The notes below the pieces were generated by a model, which saw only the letters and a program-made list of their open reading frames with translations, did no database searches and had not been told where the DNA came from. Shown piece by piece: positions 5,301-21,364 of a stretch of 21,364 nt of DNA; position 1 is the stretch's first letter, and the number at the start of each line of letters is the position of its first letter. Source of the DNA: a virus; the IMG/VR virus record IMGVR_UViG_3300034072_001195, positions 1-21,364 of that record; one strand, 5' to 3'. Both the position numbers and the translations under genes were made by a program.

Positions 5301-7002
5301 GTGGGGTAATCTTCTTGATAATTTCTATCGAGGTTTTGGTGAAATGCCAGAAACTTCTCTAGTCCGTAACTCTTTATTTGTGGATTTATACCGCAAGCGT
5401 ATGGACGCGCTAGTTAAGAATGCGATTGACACTTATCCTGGCGATTCAATCCCACCTAATTATCTACGCAAACTAGAAAGCAATGCTCGCCAATGGGCTA
5501 GAGCAGAGATGCGTCGTACTCTTTACGATACATCAGAGCGCATAGAGGCAGCAACAACACTTCGTTATATTTTCCCGTTCTTTGGTGCTTTCGCAGATGT
5601 GGCTCAAAAGTGGGGACGTATTATCCTGAATGACCCATCAGTTATCCGCAAACTAGAGACTATCTATGATTCTCCAGATCGTAATGGTATGGTTGAGGAG
5701 CGCGATGGGATTACATACATCAATGTTCCTGGTGAATGGGCTAAGTGGTTACGCTTTGAAGAGCGCCCCTTCTCAATTCCTAAACCATCTCTAAACCTTA
5801 TCTACCAGGGTAATGCTTGGTGGAATCCAGGTGCTGGATGGTTCGTACAGTATCCACTGTCTAAGTTACTTACCGAGTTTCCAGAAAAAGAAACCAACAG
5901 AATTGTTCGTGAAATATTGCCTTATGGAGCGCAAGATACCAGTATCACTAACTTCCTAGTCCAGAATGCAGCGTTCCGACGCGCTATGCAAGGATTCGAC
6001 TCAAATAGCCAATTACGTTCTAACCTAACAGTTCTTATTATGGCAGAAGAAAGCCATAAGTATGCTACTGGTCAGCGCGATACCCCTCCTACGATTAAAG
6101 AAATAAACAATAAAGTTCTATGGACTATAGGGCTAGATGTGGTTTCTCGCGTAATGCTTCCGTTCGCTACTCAGACCAGAAGCCCATATCAATTCTGGCT
6201 TGACGAGTATCGTCGTATGCGTGAGGAAGATCCACTAAACGCGTCTGAGAACTTCTACAAGAAGTATGGTGACGATTATTATTACTTCACAACCAGCCTT
6301 TCTAAAAACTACACTGGTATTGCAGCAACAGTAGAGGCCGATAAGCGAGCCAAGAAACTATCTGACTTGATTGCATCAAATCCAGAATACGGTTGGTTCT
6401 TAGTCGGCGACGCTAACGCTGGTGAATTTTCGCCTACTGTATATCAAAAGCAACAAGATCAAACAGTTGCCCCTGGCTCTACTGTTAGATTTAGAGGTCG
6501 GCAGGATCCGTTTGAGGCTATCAAGGAAACTAATGCTGAACGTGGCTGGATTGAATACAACAAGGGTATGGACAGAATTGAGGCAGAGCGTATCAATCGT
6601 GGCCTCAAGAGCCTAGAGTCCAGAGGCGCTGAAGACTTAAAGCAAATGAAGGCTGACTTTATTGCCTATCTTGCCGAGAGAAACCCAGACTGGGATTCAG
6701 TTCGTGGTCAGATAGATACTCGTAAAGTTATGAACTTCCTTAAGTTTGCTGACAAGAGCGCTAAGGACCCACGTCTATCAGGCAGAAACGATATGAAAAC
6801 TATGTCTGAGTATATCAAAGGACGTAATTACATAATGGATTTACTCGCCCAGCGCGAAAGTAAGAACATAGACAACGAAAACAATGCCGACCTCAAGGCT
6901 ATGTGGGCAGAGTTTACGGGATTACTTATTGATAAAGATGTCACTTTCAATAGGATTTATACAAGAATCTTAGAGAATGACAAATTGTTAGAGAGGCTGT
7001 AA
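2347..7002 (+). CDS. Giant putative internal virion / DNA-ejection protein (1551 aa)
   Basis: At 4.66 kb this is by far the longest gene in the window. The protein is predominantly helical. There is a coiled-coil-like stretch at about residues 480-560 (QAKIRQLTDDVEKITDETKK onward), a second charged helical region near 750-790, and a conspicuous aromatic motif at about 1073-1085 (RYIFPFFGAFADVAQKWG) in an otherwise hydrophilic context. The C-terminal 250 residues are charged and helical. I see no protease, lysozyme or nuclease motif that I can defend. Very large helical proteins encoded beside the portal and scaffold of phages lacking a tape measure are usually internal or ejected proteins, and that is the basis for the call. 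A large tegument-like protein with polyvalent domains is the main alternative. It overlaps the upstream gene by 4 bases and the downstream gene by 1 base (TAATG). Confidence 0.6.
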   Translation: MSDREIAQRIYSDKLKSKNPSAFDTMGAFNAMYNSDARKPVSLAAPADFGRSLPPQDRAQAQDMFYRQQQVKETEKGPGFWGKLFAGMEKAYNLSAQAVTFGLQLRDVNNPLYQGNFRPEAVRESWDKAREITPGRALIATVIGQPINLFEDALNAATMGRTRNKTEKFIKDHLLFAANDFNIYDKNQAEEAFREQTYGRFSSWGTDVVARFVIDPTIIAGKGYQAARAARLAVEGTQELKAVLAGEKVGRRAERIKATLQDFVEKTDDMNVTDLIRVKSIRESAAPAAFADLMAKANKIEDVTARHQAKTDIVQWAMGDTDAAMRLLQTNANIAADIANLQDEIVGAKFFGAGIDKTTGQYTMDLVNQGDNLEKNIATVAQYEADLAANFQKLNTSSILNPNVIPSVDKMASIRSYFASGEDILGTGKSFIDLRAGAASVPVRFLSGFFYKRPKGWIDFTDNQSVQTVDNMLNRVRGVSDKQIGVYQAKIRQLTDDVEKITDETKKKILNSQIKSYEDAIERSKFTVERKNQLLEKYVMATDDVARARAYQEIEDELFVTIARQMGFTNQADVRSALSKFTGARDRARNLIRERAYTGAIDPVTGGPVGGKITPIEGLDGTNYVIPLPLTEAQLVKQLPTLDVDAMYGALTKATRASRFEPLDKVYAFQRGATEVTQFIDSLIKFEVLARIGYPVRNVTEGFLRVANTAGAMAIMSRIGVGTKNVINNRFKGAKPTEIIDYLDSVKLNTKKSELLASIDNVDDPAMIERQIAEIDAMLDGKIKIKDKFGLGLRQVKIGDEVFTYEDAFGATPSQAKYIQDKFVSNAASLMDNAFSESSKKLRNAFETNGDWVVIKGDDPNWADSYLRVVNRQVRSSKFASILLGPGTREEVMDKAKMFLLKDPEGRKILRNLALGRNVDELVEANMQNIESLFPAYISPALKNIASKRSLTADDVAKYIPVTGRPDVNAAQVTNAMGRGAAMRLWGNLLDNFYRGFGEMPETSLVRNSLFVDLYRKRMDALVKNAIDTYPGDSIPPNYLRKLESNARQWARAEMRRTLYDTSERIEAATTLRYIFPFFGAFADVAQKWGRIILNDPSVIRKLETIYDSPDRNGMVEERDGITYINVPGEWAKWLRFEERPFSIPKPSLNLIYQGNAWWNPGAGWFVQYPLSKLLTEFPEKETNRIVREILPYGAQDTSITNFLVQNAAFRRAMQGFDSNSQLRSNLTVLIMAEESHKYATGQRDTPPTIKEINNKVLWTIGLDVVSRVMLPFATQTRSPYQFWLDEYRRMREEDPLNASENFYKKYGDDYYYFTTSLSKNYTGIAATVEADKRAKKLSDLIASNPEYGWFLVGDANAGEFSPTVYQKQQDQTVAPGSTVRFRGRQDPFEAIKETNAERGWIEYNKGMDRIEAERINRGLKSLESRGAEDLKQMKADFIAYLAERNPDWDSVRGQIDTRKVMNFLKFADKSAKDPRLSGRNDMKTMSEYIKGRNYIMDLLAQRESKNIDNENNADLKAMWAEFTGLLIDKDVTFNRIYTRILENDKLLERL

Positions 7003-8682: not shown

Positions 8683-10077
8683 ATGGTTGACGAGAGAGAT
8701 AGATTACGTAGACTTCGCCAATTAGAGGCGACAACTGCCCCTAAGTCTTCCACGATTAACGACCCATATTACATCCGTGACCCCAAGACCGGTCTTAGCC
8801 CTGCTCAAGTAGATGCACAAAAGGCAGTGCAAGAAGCACAAGCAACTAATGAAGCGCTAGGAATTGCAAGCAAAGTAGTTTCTAAGCCTGGTAGTGCTGG
8901 AAGTATCTCAACTCCCCCAGGAGCACCAAGGGCTGGCTATGAATGGTACGCATTTAATCTACCTGGTGGTGGATTTGAATGGCGTGAAAGACCAACAAGG
9001 GAAACTCTAATCAAGTCCTTCGGCGGAGGCGGCGGAGGAGGAGGCGGTGGAGGCGGAGGTGGAGGTAAAACTCTAGTTTCCACTTACACTGATGAAACTA
9101 CTGGCGATGTAATTGGTGTCTATTCAGATGGCACAACGGCTATTATTTCTAAAGGAAACAAAGCAGCCGCAGATGCGCTTGCCGCACAACAGGCAGCACA
9201 GGCTGCAGCGGAAGAAAAGCGTCGTCAGGGGCAATCTGCCTACTCGTTACTATTCTCAGAGTTTGAGCGGTATGGTCTAGGCGCATTAGTAGAACCACTA
9301 AAAGGATTTATTACCGAAGGTCTATCTCCAGCAGAGTTTACACTTCGCTTGCGAGAGACTGATGCCTACAAGAAGCGCTTCGCTGCTAACACACAGCGCA
9401 TCAACAAGGGCCTTCGCGCTTTATCAGAAGCAGAATACATTGGACTAGAAGACCAATACCAGAACATTATGCGTAACTATGGTCTACCTGCTTCCTATTA
9501 TGCTCGCGGTGAAATGGGAGCACAACAAGGATTTGAGAAGTTTATCGGTAACGATGTATCTGCAGCAGAGTTGGAAGATCGTATCCAGACTGCACAGAAT
9601 CGCGTTCTTAATGCAGCCCCAGAAGTATCAAAGGCGCTACGTGAGTTCTATCCAGACATCACCAATGGTGACATCTTGGCTTACACCCTTGATCCAGATA
9701 AGGCTCTTACCGACATTCGTCGTCGCGTAACTGCTGCTGAAATTGGAGCAGGTGCAATGCAGGCAGGACTACGTACTGGCCTTGCTAGAGCAGAAGAACT
9801 TGGTCGGTTTGGAATTACTGGCGAGCAGGCTCGTCAAGGATTTAGCACCATCGCTGAGGTTCTACCTGGCGCAACTAAACTTGGAGAGATTTACGCAAAG
9901 CAGGGAATGGGTCCATTCACCCAAGAGACTGCAGAACAAGAAGTCTTTGGCATTACTGGCGCTGCTGAAGCAAGAACAAAGCGCCGTAAACTTGCCGAAC
10001 TTGAAACCGCACAGTTCTCCGGTACATCCGGAGCCGCTGGTGGCGCACTAGCCCGCGAACGCGCAGGGCAATTCTAG
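8683..10077 (+). CDS. Putative internal virion protein with a poly-glycine linker (464 aa)
   Basis: Two parts are visible. Residues 1-113 hold a short domain with aromatic residues (AGYEWYAFNLPGGGFEWRER). A run of 15 consecutive glycines (residues 114-128, bases 9022-9066) then leads into a long Ala/Glu/Arg-rich helical region from about 165 to the end. Helical segments such as LRETDAYKKRFAANTQRI and ALSEAEYIGLEDQYQNIMRN resemble the style of the 302-residue neighbour. The gene starts 2 bases after the upstream stop, with GGGG before the start. A packaged core or ejection protein is the best inference from position. The glycine run probably acts as a flexible hinge between two modules. Confidence 0.55.
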   Translation: MVDERDRLRRLRQLEATTAPKSSTINDPYYIRDPKTGLSPAQVDAQKAVQEAQATNEALGIASKVVSKPGSAGSISTPPGAPRAGYEWYAFNLPGGGFEWRERPTRETLIKSFGGGGGGGGGGGGGGGKTLVSTYTDETTGDVIGVYSDGTTAIISKGNKAAADALAAQQAAQAAAEEKRRQGQSAYSLLFSEFERYGLGALVEPLKGFITEGLSPAEFTLRLRETDAYKKRFAANTQRINKGLRALSEAEYIGLEDQYQNIMRNYGLPASYYARGEMGAQQGFEKFIGNDVSAAELEDRIQTAQNRVLNAAPEVSKALREFYPDITNGDILAYTLDPDKALTDIRRRVTAAEIGAGAMQAGLRTGLARAEELGRFGITGEQARQGFSTIAEVLPGATKLGEIYAKQGMGPFTQETAEQEVFGITGAAEARTKRRKLAELETAQFSGTSGAAGGALARERAGQF

Positions 10078-10196
10078 GCCTGCTGACAGATACGCTGGCA
10101 CTGTCAGAGAGAAAGTAAGTCCAGAAGTAGGAGCCGTATTGATTCCCCCGATCAATGCGAGGCCTGCGAAACCAACTAACTAAGGGAGAAGGACCT
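10078..10196 (+). other. Gene-free spacer with two inverted repeats before the scaffold gene
   Basis: This 119-base stretch is the longest gene-free interval in the window. It contains CTGACAG/CTGTCAG (10083-10089 and 10101-10107, 11-base loop) and ATTGAT/ATCAAT (10138-10143 and 10151-10156, 7-base loop). A short direct repeat AGGCCTGC occurs at both ends (10076-10083 and 10160-10167). Neither hairpin has a T-tract behind it, and I find no convincing -35/-10 pair. The ribosome site for the scaffold (GGGAGAAGGA, 10184-10193) closes the interval. A transcript-processing or attenuation site that lets scaffold and MCP be expressed at a different level is plausible. Confidence 0.4.
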
Positions 10197-10667
10197 ATGT
10201 CCAACTATGACTACGAAGACGACGACTTTGATACTCCATCAAATGATGGCGGAGATCTCGTCAAGCAGTTGCGTAAAACCGCAAAGCAAAAGGATAAAGA
10301 ACTAGCCGAACTAAAGGCTCAGTATGAATCCCTCGCAAAAGCGAATAGAGAACGAGCAATCAAAGACGCCCTCGCTAGTCGCGGGGTAAACAGCAAGATT
10401 GCTGCATTTATCCCACAGGATATAGACCCAACTGAGGAGTCTGTATCAAAATGGCTGGAAAACTATGCCGATGTATTCGGTGTACAAGGCCAGTCGAACC
10501 AGGCAACACCTAATGTAGATCCTAAGCAGGCTGCTGCTTATCAACGGATGACCAATGCTGTAGAACAGGGAGCAACTCCTGAGTTCCAAGCAGAGATTCA
10601 TCGCAAGTTGTTAAATGCACAAAGCCGCGAAGAATTAGATGAAATTATTAGGTCGTCTGGACTCTAA
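10197..10667 (+). CDS. Capsid scaffolding protein (156 aa)
   Basis: A small, highly charged protein lies directly upstream of the MCP, the standard place for a scaffold. It has an acidic N-terminus (YDYEDDDFDTPSND), a coiled-coil-like segment at residues about 20-60 (LRKTAKQKDKELAELKAQYE), and a helical C-terminus ending SREELDEIIRSSGL. The scaffold would guide capsid shell assembly and then leave or be degraded. The start is set at ATG 10197 because GGGAGAAGGA precedes it at the right distance. An in-frame ATG at 10155 would add 14 residues but lacks a good ribosome site. No protease domain is visible here or beside it. Confidence 0.75.
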   Translation: MSNYDYEDDDFDTPSNDGGDLVKQLRKTAKQKDKELAELKAQYESLAKANRERAIKDALASRGVNSKIAAFIPQDIDPTEESVSKWLENYADVFGVQGQSNQATPNVDPKQAAAYQRMTNAVEQGATPEFQAEIHRKLLNAQSREELDEIIRSSGL

Positions 10668-13850: not shown

Positions 13851-14137
13851 GTGGCACTGGGAGTCTATGGTACAACTCTTAATGATGAGTTGAATCGTCT
13901 TGCAAATGGTGGTACCTATCGCATTGCTGCCGATATGGTTGATATGGCTAAGGCTGCCCAGGAATGGGCTGCTCAACGCAGTGTCACTCTTACCGTTACA
14001 GATACTGTAGGAGTCTTAAATGAAATTGCTGGGATTGCTTCTAAAGCCGATTGGCTTGATTTTAGCGGCGTATGTAATTACATCGCTAGCACTTCTGGCC
14101 TACCTGCAGCGGCTGCTCTCAGACAGGTCTCATCCTG

Positions 14138-14138
<1 letters not shown>
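13851..14138 (+). CDS. Hypothetical helical protein (95 aa)
   Basis: GTG 13851 follows a TAAGGAG ribosome site (13838-13844) that overlaps the nuclease stop. The protein looks all-helical and Ala-rich (LNDELNRLANGGTYRIAADM; MAKAAQEWAAQRSVTLTVTD), with no membrane segment. Its stop overlaps the next start (TGATG at 14136-14140). No family is recognised. Lying just upstream of fibre-related genes, it may be a minor structural or neck component, but this is only context. Confidence 0.6.
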
Positions 14139-15959
<1,821 letters not shown>

Positions 15960-15968
15960 AATTGTGGT

Positions 15969-17054
15969 ATGAGATTCCACGTAGTGGCACTGCCACATAC
16001 CCAAGTAACTAGAGCCTTCGCTGGGTGTGCATACACCGAAAAGGTCAGACGCTTCTGTAATATGATGAAGGGTCTAGGCCATACAGTTTACCTATATGCC
16101 GGAGAAGAAAACGAAGCAGAAGTAGACGAACTAATTCCCTGCATAACTGAAACACAACGCAGGATTGTAGTAGGCAAGAAACCTTATGTCGAAGCACCCT
16201 TTGACTATCGCCTACCTCACTGGGAGAAGTTTAATAAGAAGGCTGCGAAAGAGATTCGCAAGCGAGCAGAACAAAAAGATTTTGTCTGTGTAATTGGTGG
16301 CGCAAGCCATAAACCAATCGCAGATGCTCTACCAGAAATGATGACAGTAGAGTTTGGCGTTGGATACGCAGGAGTATTTTCTAAGTATAGAGTCTTTGAA
16401 TCTTATGCTTGGATGCACGCAATCTATGCCCAGCATCAGAATGCTGCAATGGTAGATGGTTCATTCTTTGATGCGGTAATCCCAGGTTATCTAGATCCTG
16501 AGATGTTCCCGCTAGGTAAAGGCGATGGAGATTATTACCTTTACATTGGAAGAATGATTCCAAGAAAAGGCGTTGACATAGCAGCGCATATTTGCAAAGT
16601 AATCGGCGCTAAGTTGATATTTGCAGGACCAGGACCGCATATACCAAGTTATGGTGAGTATCTAGGTCCAGTAGGACCTGAGAAGCGGGCAGAGTTGATG
16701 GGTGGAGCAATCGCTACATTCGTCCCAACGCTTTACTTAGAACCATTTGGTAATGTGAACATTGAGTCACAGGCTTGTGGAACTCCAGTGATTACAACAG
16801 ACTGGGGTGCATTTACTGAGACAGTAGTCCAAGGTGTTACTGGCTATAGATGTAGGAATGTTGAAGAGTTTATCTTGGCTACACAGAATGTAAAGAACTT
16901 GGATAGGCAGGCTATTAGAGATAGGGCTATATCGCTCTACTCAGTAGATGTCATAGCCAAGCAATATGAATACTACTTCCAAAGGTTAGAGACCTTATGG
17001 GGAGATGGCTGGTACACGGAAGGAAGCAATGCCAACACTGGGAGAAATGATTGA
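15969..17054 (+). CDS. GT4-family (GT-B fold) glycosyltransferase (361 aa)
   Basis: The C-terminal half carries the hallmarks of retaining GT4 enzymes: Y192-I-G-R-M-I-P-R-K-G at the start of the second Rossmann domain, and the EX7E motif E258-PFGNVNI-E266 followed by ACGTPVITTDWGAFTE, which bind the nucleotide sugar. The N-terminal domain is the acceptor side (FCNMMKGLGHTVYLYAGEEN). It starts 9 bases after the GT25 gene, with GGTATG just at the start, and overlaps the next gene by 26 bases. With the GT25 enzyme it probably acts in the cytoplasm on one acceptor, adding successive sugars. Whether that acceptor is the collagen-like fibre or a host glycan cannot be told from the sequence. Confidence 0.82.
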   Translation: MRFHVVALPHTQVTRAFAGCAYTEKVRRFCNMMKGLGHTVYLYAGEENEAEVDELIPCITETQRRIVVGKKPYVEAPFDYRLPHWEKFNKKAAKEIRKRAEQKDFVCVIGGASHKPIADALPEMMTVEFGVGYAGVFSKYRVFESYAWMHAIYAQHQNAAMVDGSFFDAVIPGYLDPEMFPLGKGDGDYYLYIGRMIPRKGVDIAAHICKVIGAKLIFAGPGPHIPSYGEYLGPVGPEKRAELMGGAIATFVPTLYLEPFGNVNIESQACGTPVITTDWGAFTETVVQGVTGYRCRNVEEFILATQNVKNLDRQAIRDRAISLYSVDVIAKQYEYYFQRLETLWGDGWYTEGSNANTGRND

Positions 17055-18649: not shown

Positions 18650-19417
18650 ATGGCTATAGGACGTATTCCAGAACCAGGGACTGGTATCCCTGAGTCTATC
18701 GTTGACGCTAAGGGAGATATCGTCACAGCAACCGCTGCTGACACCCCAGCCCGTCTTGCTGTAGGAACCAATGAGTATCGCCTCGTTGCCGATTCAGGTG
18801 AGACCACAGGCTTGAAGTATGTAGCCGATACCACCAACTATGCTGTTGCTGCCAAGGGTGATCTCTTGGTTGGCACCGCAGCCGATACCCTATCTGCCTT
18901 ATCAGTAGGCACAGACGGCTACACACTCGTAGCGGACTCTTCAGAGACCACCGGACTCAAGTGGCAGGCACCTACTTTTGCCGGATGTCGTATTTACAAC
19001 AGCACAGATTTTGCCTCAAATAGCGGTTCATCCGTAAAAGTGACTTTTAATAGTGAAGATATCGATACCGATAGTTTTCACAGCACTTCGAGCAATACTT
19101 CAAGAATCACTATCCCGACCGGTAAAGGTGGAAAATATCTTTTTACTTATTCAATGGGCTGGAGCCATATTGTTGGAACACCAGGAACAGGTGTTAGGAT
19201 TGCTTGGTTAGTTAAAAATGGTTCAACTTACTTGGGCGGAGCAACGCAAGGTGGGTTAGCGGCTACAACGACTTTTTGTAATGGCTCTTTCATTGTCGAT
19301 GCCGTAGCAACAGATTATTTTGAAATAGAAATTTTCCAAAATAGCGGTGACAACACCACGGCAGTTCGCGGTGGGACTACATACAATAACTTTTGCTGCG
19401 AATTTTTAGGAGCGTAA
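18650..19417 (+). CDS. Tail fibre, complete, with C1q-like tip (255 aa)
   Basis: This is the receptor-binding fibre in its expressed form. Residues 1-19 (MAIGRIPEPGTGIPESIVD) are a probable docking peptide. Residues 20-57 and 68-105 are two copies of a shaft repeat starting AKGD and ending ETTGLK-aromatic. The hinge VADSSETTGLKWQAP follows at residues 94-108. The tip from about 110 has the strand order of C1q/TNF-like jelly rolls (VKVTFNSEDIDTD; ITIPTGKGGKYLFTYSMGW; WLVKNGSTYLGG; DYFEIEIFQNSG; C-terminal FCCEFLGA). GC falls sharply after the hinge, which suggests the tip was acquired separately. The start ATG 18650 follows the previous stop by one base. The last codons (GGA GCG stop) supply the ribosome site of the chaperone gene. 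Confidence 0.8.
   Translation: MAIGRIPEPGTGIPESIVDAKGDIVTATAADTPARLAVGTNEYRLVADSGETTGLKYVADTTNYAVAAKGDLLVGTAADTLSALSVGTDGYTLVADSSETTGLKWQAPTFAGCRIYNSTDFASNSGSSVKVTFNSEDIDTDSFHSTSSNTSRITIPTGKGGKYLFTYSMGWSHIVGTPGTGVRIAWLVKNGSTYLGGATQGGLAATTTFCNGSFIVDAVATDYFEIEIFQNSGDNTTAVRGGTTYNNFCCEFLGA
18707..18964 (+). repeat. Two-copy 38-residue shaft repeat in the fibre
   Basis: Unit one (18707-18820) and unit two (18851-18964) each encode AKGD, then TAADT, then VGT, Tyr, LVADS, ETTGLK and an aromatic residue. They are separated by ten residues. Their DNA has diverged at many synonymous sites. The unit end is the same hinge motif that begins the two extra tip cassettes downstream, so the hinge is the natural junction for domain exchange. 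Confidence 0.75.
18929..18973 (+). repeat. Hinge sequence, copy 1 (inside the complete fibre)
   Basis: These 45 bases encode VADSSETTGLKWQAP. Two related copies head the tip cassettes at 19639-19683 (plus strand) and 21205-21249 (minus strand). By hand count copy 1 agrees with copy 2 at 33 of 45 bases and with copy 3 at 32 of 45. All three share the first eight bases, GTAGCGGA. Confidence 0.8.
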
Positions 19418-19418
19418 A

Positions 19419-19598
19419 ATGACACTTTGCGAAATTATTTTGGCTGCTTATCCTGAATTAACTTGGAACGATTTTACACCTTTTGATGGCGTAATAAATG
19501 TCAAAGATGATTCAGATGGATTAGGTGAATATATCGCCAAGTGGAACTATTCCAAACCCATCCCTGACGGCCTGACCCTGGGCAAGCCTTCAGCATAA
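19419..19598 (+). CDS. XkdW-like tail-fibre assembly protein (59 aa)
   Basis: A 59-residue protein (MTLCEIILAAYPELTWNDFT, then INVKDDSDGLGEYIAKWNYS and KPIPDGL). The run DDSDGLG-YI-KWNY-KPIPDGL is the pattern I associate with the XkdW family, small proteins encoded next to phage tail fibres and thought to help fibre assembly. It has a strong ribosome site (TTAGGAGC, 19406-19413) formed by the last codons of the fibre gene. It probably pairs specifically with the C1q-like tip upstream, because the other two cassettes have a different chaperone type. The last 13 bases before the stop lie within the inverted repeat 19586-19615. Confidence 0.7.
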   Translation: MTLCEIILAAYPELTWNDFTPFDGVINVKDDSDGLGEYIAKWNYSKPIPDGLTLGKPSA

Positions 19599-19615
19599 TC
19601 CTCCGAGATTGTTCC
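19586..19615 (+). repeat. Left inverted repeat at the cassette 1 / cassette 2 border
   Basis: Thirty bases that run through the stop codon of the XkdW-like gene and end in GATTGTTCC. They align with the minus strand of 20412-20442 at 24 of 31 columns (one gap), and all six mismatches are transitions. The left copy is read in a different frame from the right copy relative to the overlapping genes, so the similarity is not protein-driven. An internal dyad ATAATC-N6-GATTGT is present (19595-19612). Confidence 0.6.
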
Positions 19616-20136
19616 GCTACGGAAGATCAGCATTTTTCGTAGCGGATAGTTCAGAAACTACAGGTCTAAAGTGGGCTGCTCCTGCTGGTGGCAAAGTTTT
19701 ACAAGTTGTTTCCGCTACTTATTCAACGCAAACGACTTCAACTTCGACTACTTGGTCGGATAGTGGTCTAAATTGCTCGATAACTCCGAGCGCAGCGACT
19801 TCTAAAATTTTAGTTCTTCTTACAATGCCAATCACTCAATGGCGCGATGCACAGGCCAATTTTGGCGGTTGGAGATTAATGCGAGATAGCACTTTTATTT
19901 TCGGCGATGATTCGGCAAACTCGCCTTTCTTTTGGTCGGGTCATTACGAAGGCGCTTCTAGTCAGCAAAGAATAAGGGCTACTTGGGCAATCAATTATTT
20001 AGATGCTCCAAGCACTACTAGCGCCACAAATTACAAGATTCAAATCGGCGTAAATGATACCTCCAATAGTGGTTCGTTAAGGGCTTTTGAGAGTAGCCAA
20101 ACCGGAATGATTATGTTATTAGAGATTGGAGCATAA
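19609..20136 (+). CDS. Fibre-tip cassette 2, lacking the N-terminal part (probably silent)
   Basis: The reading frame has only a TTG at 19609 as a possible start, with no Shine-Dalgarno (the preceding bases are CCTCCGAGA). It enters the hinge VADSSETTGLKWAAP at 19639, without docking peptide or shaft repeats. The tip (KVLQVVSATYSTQTTSTSTT; then LNCSITPSAATSKILVLLTM) is a beta-rich type I recognise from other phage fibres, where a related N-terminus is followed by the ITPSA-SSKILV segment. It ends IGA-stop with GGAGC, like the first fibre. It is best read as a spare tip that must be joined to the N-terminal part of the fibre at 18650 to be displayed. It could also be a decayed duplicate fibre. 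Confidence 0.7.
   Translation: MFRYGRSAFFVADSSETTGLKWAAPAGGKVLQVVSATYSTQTTSTSTTWSDSGLNCSITPSAATSKILVLLTMPITQWRDAQANFGGWRLMRDSTFIFGDDSANSPFFWSGHYEGASSQQRIRATWAINYLDAPSTTSATNYKIQIGVNDTSNSGSLRAFESSQTGMIMLLEIGA
19639..19683 (+). repeat. Hinge sequence, copy 2 (start of tip cassette 2)
   Basis: This stretch encodes VADSSETTGLKWAAP. It agrees with copy 3 (minus strand, 21205-21249) at 38 of 45 bases, including the first 12 without a mismatch (GTAGCGGATAGT), but with copy 1 at only 33 of 45. Copies 2 and 3 are therefore closer relatives and stand in inverted orientation. Confidence 0.8.
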
Positions 20137-20137
20137 A

Positions 20138-20383
20138 TTGGCTAGTGCCGAAGATGTTTTATTTTATTTGAGACCTAATGGCGGCTGGGTAATTAGGGGT
20201 GAAGATTACGAAGGGATTGAGTTCCTAGAAGCCGAGCCATTTACCAAACAAGAATTTCTAGCCGCCTTTGATTTAGCAGATGAGGCGAAAGCGCAAGCAC
20301 AAGCCGAAGCAACTGCTAATCGCCAAGCCCTATTAAAGCGTCTCGGAATCACCGAGGAAGAGGCTCGCCTGCTTTTAGGCTAA
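20138..20383 (+). CDS. Fibre-tip chaperone of cassette 2 (81 aa)
   Basis: TTG 20138 is chosen because GGAG at 20128-20131 precedes it; a TTG at 20126 lies inside the upstream gene. The N-terminal half has an aromatic/acidic module (VLFYLRPNGGWVIRGEDYEG, then FLEAEPFTKQEFLAAF). The C-terminal half is an Ala/Glu/Lys helix ending LLKRLGITEEEARLLLG. The helix-plus-LG-helix end is shared with the minus-strand chaperone at 20435-20704 and is common in small proteins encoded after phage fibres. A tip-specific assembly role is inferred from position and this resemblance. Confidence 0.65.
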   Translation: MASAEDVLFYLRPNGGWVIRGEDYEGIEFLEAEPFTKQEFLAAFDLADEAKAQAQAEATANRQALLKRLGITEEEARLLLG

Positions 20384-20389
20384 GACTGA

Positions 20390-20413
20390 CCCTGCCCGAT
20401 CAAAAGGGCAGGG
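20390..20413. terminator. Hairpin between convergent cassettes 2 and 3
   Basis: CCCTGCCC (20390-20397) pairs perfectly with GGGCAGGG (20406-20413) around an 8-base loop, GATCAAAA. It sits between the ends of two converging gene pairs, where a bidirectional terminator is expected. Neither side has a clear T-tract. The stem bases are nearly those of the hairpin behind the MCP, with the arms in the opposite order. Confidence 0.55.
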
Positions 20414-20442
20414 AACAATCTTGAGGGGATTGTGCTAAAGAC
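20412..20442 (-). repeat. Right inverted repeat at the cassette 2 / cassette 3 border
   Basis: This is the minus-strand partner of 19586-19615. It begins with GGAACAATCT on the plus strand and runs into the stop codon of the minus-strand chaperone gene. It includes the dyad ACAATC-N7-GATTGT (20415-20433). Together with the left copy it encloses cassette 2 as an inverted-repeat-bounded segment of about 0.8 kb. Confidence 0.6.
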
Positions 20443-20704
20443 CGAGAGCCTTTAAGTCATCACTATCAAGACCAAGAGCGGCGAGTTTGGCTAATGCCGC
20501 TTCGCGCTTGGCTGCTGCTTCGGCTTTAGCGGCTTCTTCGGCGGCTGCTTTTTCTATTTTCGCTATTTCTGCATCGGCCCAAGATTCAATAAGTAAATCA
20601 TATTCATCGCCAGTAATTTTTTCATAACCAGTTTCTTCACTACCTCGGCGAAGAATAGGATTTTCATTTTTATATTTTGCTATGATTTCTTGTTTTGTCA
20701 TCAT
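20435..20704 (-). CDS. Fibre-tip chaperone of cassette 3 (89 aa)
   Basis: Read leftward. The start at 20704 overlaps the upstream tip stop (TAATGATG, two possible ATGs). The N-terminal half is charged (TKQEIIAKYKNENPILRRGS, then YEKITGDEYDLLIESWADAE). The C-terminal half is an Ala/Glu/Lys helix ending LAKLAALGLDSDDLKALGL. That ending parallels the chaperone of cassette 2 (LLKRLGITEEEARLLLG). GC content is low (about 29% by hand count over 20581-20700). No ribosome site is obvious, which fits translational coupling or a silent state. Confidence 0.65.
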   Translation of the reverse strand: MMTKQEIIAKYKNENPILRRGSEETGYEKITGDEYDLLIESWADAEIAKIEKAAAEEAAKAEAAAKREAALAKLAALGLDSDDLKALGL

Positions 20705-21273
20705 TATAGTGCCAATCCGTAAATAGACGCTGTGAGAGTTAGATTACCGCTAGAACTTGAAAAAATTAGTCCTGTGTAAGTTCTCGTTGTGTGTTGTAAT
20801 CCAATAAATGTGCATATTTCCTCGGTATCATCTTCTCCATAAGTTCCATACATAAGAGGATAACCGCCATTAACTCTACTAATCCAGAAATTGCCTGAAC
20901 CTGGTCGGCCACCGCCCGTATTTCTTGCAATTTGCCAATAATTGCTGGGATTTGCATAAGCGCTGGCAGTTGTTCCATTGCTTATATTAGTAAAATTATT
21001 CCAATAATAAGTTCCGGCTTGAGTTGTTGGGCCAGCGTATCGTAATTGAATATATGGGTCAGGGCCAGCACCGGCAGAATTAGACCAAGACTCTATAGCA
21101 ATTAAATAATTATTGTAACTTGCACTAAAAACTCCATCAAAAGTTGTTCCAGTATCAGCAACACTCGTTGAAGTTGCTCTTTTAATTAAAGTTAATCCGC
21201 TTGAAGGTGCCGCCCACTTTAACCCTGTCGTTTCCGCACTATCCGCTACAAGACTTCCGATTGTTCCTGGCAC
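20704..21273 (-). CDS. Fibre-tip cassette 3, inverted, lacking the N-terminal part (probably silent)
   Basis: On the minus strand a GTG at 21273 is the closest possible start, giving MPGTIGSLVADSAETTGLKW; the frame stays open upstream to a TTG at 21357. The hinge is at 21249-21205, followed by a tip of about 160 residues (LIKRATSTSVADTGTTFDGV; later GNFWISRVNGGYPLMYGTYG) ending NLTLTASIYGLAL. That ending and the TxFDGVFSASYNNYLI segment are typical of one class of phage fibre tips. It has no docking peptide or shaft, and I see no minus-strand promoter in the remaining 90 bases. It is therefore probably a silent alternative tip, unrelated in sequence to the other two tips beyond the hinge. Confidence 0.7.
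   Translation of the reverse strand: MPGTIGSLVADSAETTGLKWAAPSSGLTLIKRATSTSVADTGTTFDGVFSASYNNYLIAIESWSNSAGAGPDPYIQLRYAGPTTQAGTYYWNNFTNISNGTTASAYANPSNYWQIARNTGGGRPGSGNFWISRVNGGYPLMYGTYGEDDTEEICTFIGLQHTTRTYTGLIFSSSSGNLTLTASIYGLAL
21205..21249 (-). repeat. Hinge sequence, copy 3 (start of tip cassette 3)
   Basis: It encodes VADSAETTGLKWAAP on the minus strand. It matches copy 2 at 38 of 45 bases and copy 1 at 32 of 45. Immediately upstream on its own strand lies CAGGAACAATCGG, which contains the same 9-base core (GGAACAATC) found in both inverted repeats. Confidence 0.8.
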
Positions 21274-21291
21274 AATCCTGTGCAAATGTGC

Positions 21292-21321
21292 TTGACAAGA
21301 GAATAATCCCCTTACTAAAGT
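21292..21321 (+). promoter_or_regulatory. Sigma70-type promoter for a leaderless gene
   Basis: A perfect -35 TTGACA (21292-21297) is followed after 18 bases by TAAAGT (21316-21321, four of six matches to TATAAT). The ATG at 21329 lies 7 bases beyond the -10, where the transcript would begin, so the message would be leaderless, a common arrangement in actinobacteria. Just upstream, GCACA-N4-TGTGC (21270-21283) plus a further TGTGC (21287-21291) could be an operator. Confidence 0.6.
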
Positions 21322-21328
21322 GCAGGTT

Positions 21329-21364
21329 ATGGAACAGACACCATTAGAAGTAATCAAAGAAAAA
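21329..21364 (+). CDS. Start of a rightward gene, cut by the window end
   Basis: Only 12 codons are present (MEQTPLEVIKEK). The frame opens at an ATG placed exactly where the predicted transcript starts, and no Shine-Dalgarno lies in between. It begins a transcription unit separate from the structural operon. Nothing can be said about function; a regulator, lysis gene or recombinase would all be possible at this place. Confidence 0.5.
   Translation, partial: MEQTPLEVIKEK

Follow-up and report, generated by a model that had tools for sequence, protein, structure and literature searches.

A probable tyrosine-recombinase fibre-tip shufflon in uncultured phages related to actinobacteriophages

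We have analyzed a tail-fibre locus at the right end of a tailed-phage sequence, the IMG/VR record IMGVR_UViG_3300034072_001195. The window is the whole of this record, 21,364 nt. The locus has one complete fibre gene and, downstream of it, a pair of headless tip cassettes of which the second is inverted, and a tyrosine recombinase gene begins beyond them at the contig end. It is highly probable that this is a fibre-tip shufflon, in which programmed inversion at a shared hinge, catalyzed by the tyrosine recombinase, would change the tip that is joined to a constant fibre head. We favor this reading because the adjacent enzyme, the precision of the breakpoints, a constraint on the hinge at the level of individual bases and the randomized orientation of the locus between relatives all agree.

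The complete fibre open reading frame (ORF) occupies 18650–19417 on the plus strand. Its constant part (18650–18928, +) has a docking peptide and shaft repeats with PHROG matches of tail-fibre type, and ends at the putative crossover core. Tip 1 (18929–19417, +) is in the expressed position, and is followed by a small XkdW-like ORF (19419–19598, +; PF09636, E 1.9e-4). Tip 2 (ORF 19639–20136, +) is headless and silent, and its small ORF ends at 20383 (+) with an uncertain start, a TTG at 20126 or 20138. Tip 3 (20704–21249, −), whose relatives include those of loci L246 and L247, is headless, silent and inverted, with its small ORF at 20435–20704 (−). The hinge, VADS-ETTGLKW, is present at 18929 (+), 19639 (+) and 21241–21249 (−).

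A first-pass annotation, made by a model from the letters and ORFs alone, had described three tips sharing one hinge, each with its own small gene, with a docking peptide and shaft in the first cassette only and the third cassette on the opposite strand. The ORFs and hinge coordinates bear this out, and agree with its view that cassettes 2 and 3 begin at the hinge and have no convincing ribosome sites. The head is present in just one of the three cassettes. In cassette 2 the reading frame is open for 22 codons before the hinge motif, with TTG starts only and no evident Shine-Dalgarno sequence. The upstream reading of cassette 3 runs into the recombinase promoter region, again with no evident start signal. 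The small genes had been called chaperone-like. Each tip does have one, but the suggested role corresponds to a single XkdW match, of small ORF 1 only, at 21.6 bits against a cut-off of 24.6. It is probable that these small ORFs assist in fibre assembly.

The same annotation found no recombinase in the window. While most of the gene lies beyond the contig end, the final 36 bases (21329–21364, +), ATGGAACAG..., translate to MEQTPLEVIKEK, the first 12 codons of a recombinase that is intact in the related loci L002 and L014. A check of the adjacent sequence, as had been suggested, thus places a tyrosine recombinase directly beside the locus. In L014 it is a 262-amino-acid gene (9561–10349) directly after the array, with a PF00589 match of 47 bits (cut-off 27.1) and PHROG integrase matches. 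Residues R132, K158, H211, R214, H238 and Y247 are invariant across 14 diverse aligned recombinase relatives, and the alignments assign them as the putative catalytic R-K-H-R-H-Y set. The L014 protein aligns to XerD from residue 27, which leaves no space for an N-terminal arm-type domain. A sigma-70-like recombinase promoter, TTGACA-18-TAAAGT, lies at 21292–21321 (+) in the window, and is the best of nine consensus matches (10/12). There was no reverse transcriptase (PF00078) in the window or in the contigs of nine relatives, some of them incomplete, and no sign of a diversity-generating retroelement.

A search based on the recombinase identified at least 116 related loci in IMG/VR, some of which lack silent cassettes, and 84 loci were inspected. 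The comparison points to a crossover core at the hinge. In the window this is GTAGCGGAC at hinge 1 (18929–18937, +), GTAGCGGAT at hinge 2 (19639–19647, +) and GTAGCGGAT at hinge 3 (21241–21249, −). GTAGCGGAY has three exact copies in the window, one per hinge and none elsewhere, where 0.19 are expected; none of 100 shuffles reached three. Hinges 2 and 3 are joined by a 45-nt inverted repeat with 84% complementarity (19639–19683 and 21205–21249), and hinges 1 and 2 by a 50-nt direct repeat (74%). We compared 45 pairs of loci that share at least 96% identity in the flank but have unrelated tips; the hinge concerned is the first in 8 pairs, the last in 26 and a middle one in 11. In these pairs all nine bases of GTAGCGGAT agree, apart from a single exception at base 9, and identity drops immediately thereafter. 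Up to the core, the constant part of the fibre is 100% identical over 843 bp between L086 and L090.

The constraint extends to the choice of codons. Val-Ala-Asp can be spelled in 32 ways, yet at the hinge it is GTAGCGGA(T/C) in 33 of 42 recombinase-positive fibres, compared with 1 of 40 that are recombinase-negative. The spelling therefore tracks the presence of the recombinase, linking the enzyme to the hinge. Among the positives the exceptions are a distant recombinase group that has no cassettes and L082, the hinge of which does have the word but for which the script selected a different fibre. For about one-third of the negative fibres an upstream VAAS hinge was picked up by the script instead; the contrast, though strong, is therefore not a perfectly matched one. 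The single negative fibre with the hinge spelling is that of L029. There, at 6000–6700 and without a recombinase, one tip that has the GTAGCGGAT hinge is accompanied by an XkdW-like gene and by a decayed site A (a palindromic border site described below), directly before an endolysin-like gene. The L029 tip is probably a captured cassette.

Recombinase-bearing loci usually have two or three cassettes. The arrangements (+,−) and (+,−,−) and larger arrays recur, and some loci have a single tip. The usual order of three cassettes is fibre(+), tip(−), tip(−); the (+,+,−) of the window is also found in L111 and, inside larger arrays, in L086 and L088. The nearest relative of the window that we found, L002, is arranged (+,−,−). 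The recombinase-side flanks of the two are 98.4% identical over 123 bp in the same orientation. Window positions 19592–19674, containing border site B and hinge 2, match L002 in inverted orientation (94%, 83 bp), as do positions 20376–20462, containing site A (84%, ~90 bp), and the order of these two blocks is exchanged. Inversion between hinges 1 and 3 predicts such reversed and exchanged inner landmarks, and the state of the window would be the outcome expected of that event.

Since site A is asymmetric, its orientation reports the inversion state independently of the identity of the tips. Among 32 loci it is plus in 18 and minus in 14. It is opposite in four of eight pairs with at least 99% identity in the recombinase region, in four of eight at 97–99%, and in 76 of 142 at 80–90%. 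On the recombinase tree there are 11 changes of orientation, compared with a mean of 10.6 for shuffled labels. L129 and L130 have opposite site A despite 100% identity over 1501 bp. Orientation is therefore random even between near-identical loci, and turns over faster than the neighboring gene changes. Contig ends are also over-represented in the 210 nt before the recombinase (10 compared with 3.4 expected, p=0.001), which is indirectly consistent with assemblies breaking where states are mixed.

The proposed mechanism is as follows. A constant fibre head would be fused in frame to one receptor-binding tip, with one to three further cassettes of tip and helper gene held silent downstream, lacking a head or evident start signal. 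The tyrosine recombinase, encoded just outside the array and with its own promoter, would act on two opposed copies of the hinge word GTAGCGGA-T/C, inside the Val-Ala-Asp codons. The DNA between them would invert, joining a different tip and its own helper gene to the head. A (+,−,−) array could invert 1 × 2 or 1 × 3, and a (+,+,−) array 1 × 3 or 2 × 3, so that four arrangements would be reachable and all three tips expressible. If two hinges of the same orientation recombined, cassettes would be lost. Single-tip loci such as L116 may be the outcome of such a deletion, although the L116 junction is located at the palindrome/helper end. We infer that this recombinase would perform the inversion, that it would do so within one phage population, and that the host receptor would change as a result.

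The tips move between the expressed and silent positions. In the 108 tips of recombinase-positive loci, all five families with at least six members include both head-fused and headless forms. The comparison with related phages that the first-pass annotation had proposed therefore finds the same segment in opposite arrangements, and tip families that have a head in one phage and lack it in another, the switch being at the hinge core. The tip expressed in L226 is 100% identical over 529 bp to a silent tip in L248, where the fibre-head ends are ~81% alike, and the context changes within 2 nt of the core. The first 280 bp of the L246 expressed tip are 97% identical to tips stored in L084 and L090, and a block from the core to site A is shared at 91% over 838 bp between L264, where it is expressed, and L002, where it is stored. 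Because these tips are common to different phages, cassettes also pass between phages.

Exchange of this kind suggests another explanation, that the tips have been rearranged over evolutionary time by homologous recombination between phages, at the hinge and at the helper-end/palindrome, with no switching within a phage and with the recombinase unrelated. The unrelated tips on the near-identical backbones of L129 and L130, the identical tip beside fibre heads that are ~81% alike, and the L264/L002 block would all fit, and the conserved hinge and helper-end segments (~45–85 bp) could be used as homology arms. Yet the breakpoints fall at one 9-bp word, the GTAGCGGAY spelling of which is tied to recombinase presence. 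Moreover site A orientation is randomized where recombinase regions are at least 99% identical, and the silent cassettes are mostly placed so that inversion rather than deletion delivers a new tip. We therefore regard homologous recombination as an improbable account of the locus.

It is also conceivable that the enzyme is a lysogeny integrase, placed beside a variable fibre locus by chance, with inversion a rare side reaction. Each of 11 recombinase-positive contigs of up to 39.9 kb, possibly incomplete, has this as its one PF00589 protein, the closest relatives in isolated phages are annotated as integrases (~32% identity or less among the matches listed), and a related version exists without cassettes. 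However, no close copy was found in 84,980 bacterial and archaeal species genomes, where relatives are 24–39% identical, so no prophage was seen. The best of them, at 39%, is L155, an Actinomycetes metagenome-assembled genome, and has no fibre locus adjoining the recombinase. The presence of the recombinase predicts the hinge spelling, and fibre-bearing relatives that lack it (L053, L067 and L033) have no PF00589 protein in the contigs searched. A chance association of this kind is very unlikely.

The stored tips appear to be working parts rather than remnants. In the enlarged set of loci there are 58 complete silent tips, each of them open and full-length. The median ratio of nonsynonymous to synonymous substitution rates (dN/dS) is 0.38 for silent–silent pairs, compared with 0.30 for expressed–expressed pairs. 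The idea of cassettes 2 and 3 as a reserve of alternative tips is thus upheld by comparison, and frameshifts and truncations were looked for in the stored tips with none found. That the two cassettes are the remains of a decayed array of duplicated fibres can be rejected almost with certainty. They do lack heads and translation signals, but silent tips among the relatives keep their reading frames open, with dN/dS well under 1, and in dozens of phages headless forms are the norm.

The AlphaFold2 model of tip 1 is a jelly roll of C1q/TNF type, with a mean predicted local distance difference test score (pLDDT) of 78.5. Its best match to a solved structure is the spike knob of phage phi812 (Z 20.4, root-mean-square deviation 1.4 over 138 residues), and it also matches the cell-binding domain of the cyanophage A-1(L) short tail fibre (Z 15.7). 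The tip 2 model (pLDDT 82.3) has a TNF-like lectin fold, similar to PLTL (Z 13.1) and BC2L-C (Z 12.6). On the basis of these models tips 1 and 2 are likely to be receptor-binding.

A number of observations weigh against the shufflon. Among the fetched loci we found no two that are exact inversion isomers, sharing all three tips but differing in their order. Near-identical backbones usually differ in tip content too, and turnover of tips by exchange between phages would seem to be at least as visible as inversion. The locus pairs that define the breakpoints are not mutually independent. The core is short (8–9 bp) without obvious inverted arms, and the sequence to its left varies by slot. dS is near saturation in most of the pairs used for dN/dS. 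The recombinase of the window itself is known from 12 codons alone. Lastly, a recombinase that is 75–79% identical occurs in L141, L144 and L148–L154 directly after a different, single fibre, where silent cassettes were not found; it may have another role in those phages.

Three palindromic sites, none assigned to a strand, mark the borders of the cassettes. Site B (19593–19614) is the palindrome GCATAATC-CTCCGA-GATTGTTC, and is inverted relative to the (+,−,−) relatives. Site A (20384–20435) comprises a G+C hairpin (20390–20413; RNA fold z −4.8) and the palindrome GAACAATC-TTGAGGG-GATTGTGC, between the tail-to-tail cassettes. Site C (21263–21291), GATTGTTCC-TG-GCACAATC..., is outside the invertible segment and is oriented as in L002. 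The placement recurs in the relatives, with A between tail-to-tail cassettes and C near the recombinase. Site B separates hinge 2 from the end of cassette 3, and in arrays of two cassettes it precedes the recombinase. The border palindromes have 8-bp arms and 6-bp asymmetric spacers. In recombinase-positive loci all 129 palindrome matches lie within 4.3 kb upstream of the recombinase, with none elsewhere in 702 kb, and there are 12 matches in 71 recombinase-negative loci. The matches in the window taken alone are within chance, and the case for these sites rests on the comparison.

With their arms and 6-nt spacers the palindromes resemble sites for a tyrosine recombinase, and we considered them as the points of crossover. 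The tip-exchange breakpoints lie at the hinge core instead, and each type of spacer normally occurs once per phage. As the palindromes sit just 3′ of the helper genes, and given the hairpin z score of −4.8, site A is more likely a two-way terminator, ending transcription of the expressed cassette from either side. L110, L123–L125, L132, L137 and L138 have neither hinge words nor silent cassettes, yet retain the palindrome GCACAATCCTCTGAGATTGTTC 27 nt upstream of the recombinase, and several of these loci have similar fibre or tip-like genes in plus-strand tandem instead. The window also has an extra, inverted copy of the 8-bp core (TCCGCTAC; 19613–19620, −), 18 nt before hinge 2. It is shared with L002 and absent from the other aligned relatives, and is possibly the trace of an emptied cassette.

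A further proposal, which we put forward tentatively and which is rather less likely than not to hold, is that the recombinase also acts between co-infecting phages at the hinge word. A guild of phages would then share a pool of tips and helpers in the manner of an integron, with the palindromic border sites as part of the machinery. If this were true, the array of each phage would be a small, changing sample of the shared pool.

The closest known system appears to be the Rin shufflon of Bifidobacterium prophages, with a constant head, headless tips, a short crossover word and a tyrosine invertase without an arm domain (PMC6109161). It is reported from Eggerthella lenta prophages too (PMC8778435). 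From its sequence, we would expect the present locus to work like Rin. Both have a phage-encoded tyrosine recombinase beside the array, with core-binding and catalytic domains and no arm-type domain (262 amino acids in L014), and both have a gene with a constant receptor-binding N-terminal part together with several headless C-terminal genes, some of opposite orientation. In each a short asymmetric word precedes every variable gene, with breakpoints at the word, and the hosts are actinobacterial, as judged here from the Streptomyces-phage relatives. The main distinctions are that the crossover word is GTAGCGGAT rather than TTCCCTAACCC or ttccgtat, that each cassette carries a tip and its own helper gene, and that palindromes with asymmetric spacers mark the cassette borders. 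The Rin word, rix (TTCCCTAACCC), has no exact match in the window, and its one match with a single mismatch, at 469, is outside the locus and within chance. Of the separate lysogeny integrase that accompanies Rin, no counterpart was found in the 11 positive contigs of up to 39.9 kb, which may be incomplete. Where Rin is known from prophages, this locus is known from many uncultured viral contigs.

In the haloarchaeal Natrialba virus phiCh1 the virus' own recombinase inverts the ends of the fibres (PMC4284463, PMC8651126). The exchange of fibre C-terminal ends by a recombinase would be common to both. In phiCh1, however, two fibre genes flank the recombinase gene within the invertible segment, whereas here it is outside, beyond site C, and the tips number up to three or more. 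The Rci shufflon of plasmid R64/ColIb-P9 likewise uses a tyrosine recombinase to exchange C-terminal segments of an adhesin, with several segments and a conserved core that has one non-conserved flank. All these features would be shared by our locus, although the adhesin is that of a pilus in Rci and a phage fibre here. The 19-bp sfx repeats have no match in the window with up to three mismatches. In phage Mu, inversion swaps the fibre C-terminus together with an assembly gene (S/U and S′/U′), and Gin, Cin and Min are serine recombinases. The comparison with Mu drawn in the first-pass annotation holds for the logic of tip switching, including the swap of a tip with its assembly gene, but not for the enzyme, which is a tyrosine recombinase; no serine recombinase (PF00239) matched in the window or the relatives searched. 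The Gin, Cin and Min systems of Mu, P1 and p15B have been described (PMC6109161).

The host is likely to be actinobacterial, because the capsid and one conserved structural protein are closest, among named isolates, to the Streptomyces phages FlowerPower and Kumquat (~38–45% identity). A nucleotide search with the whole locus gave no match in isolated phages. Among the structural genes of the window is one for a collagen-like protein with G-X-Y repeats (14479–15378; PF01391, 141 bits), followed by two ORFs (15375–17054) that we take to be glycosyltransferase-like from their appearance. In L014 a gene for a proteasome/HslV-like peptidase (13978–14583; PF00227, PHROG 1040) lies downstream of the endolysin.

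In the literature that we found, fibre shufflons with tyrosine recombinases come mainly from gut actinobacterial prophages and haloviruses. The present analysis would extend them to a large set of uncultured phages that are related to actinobacteriophages. In this set the crossover word is defined, the stored lectin-like tips are intact, alternative states can be seen and cassettes are exchanged between phages. It also provides a signature that can be sought in metagenomic reads, a GTAGCGGAT hinge together with ATCCGCTAC ~80–130 nt before the start of the recombinase. The question of whether these phages switch receptors by a programmed, reversible rearrangement of their DNA thus becomes testable.

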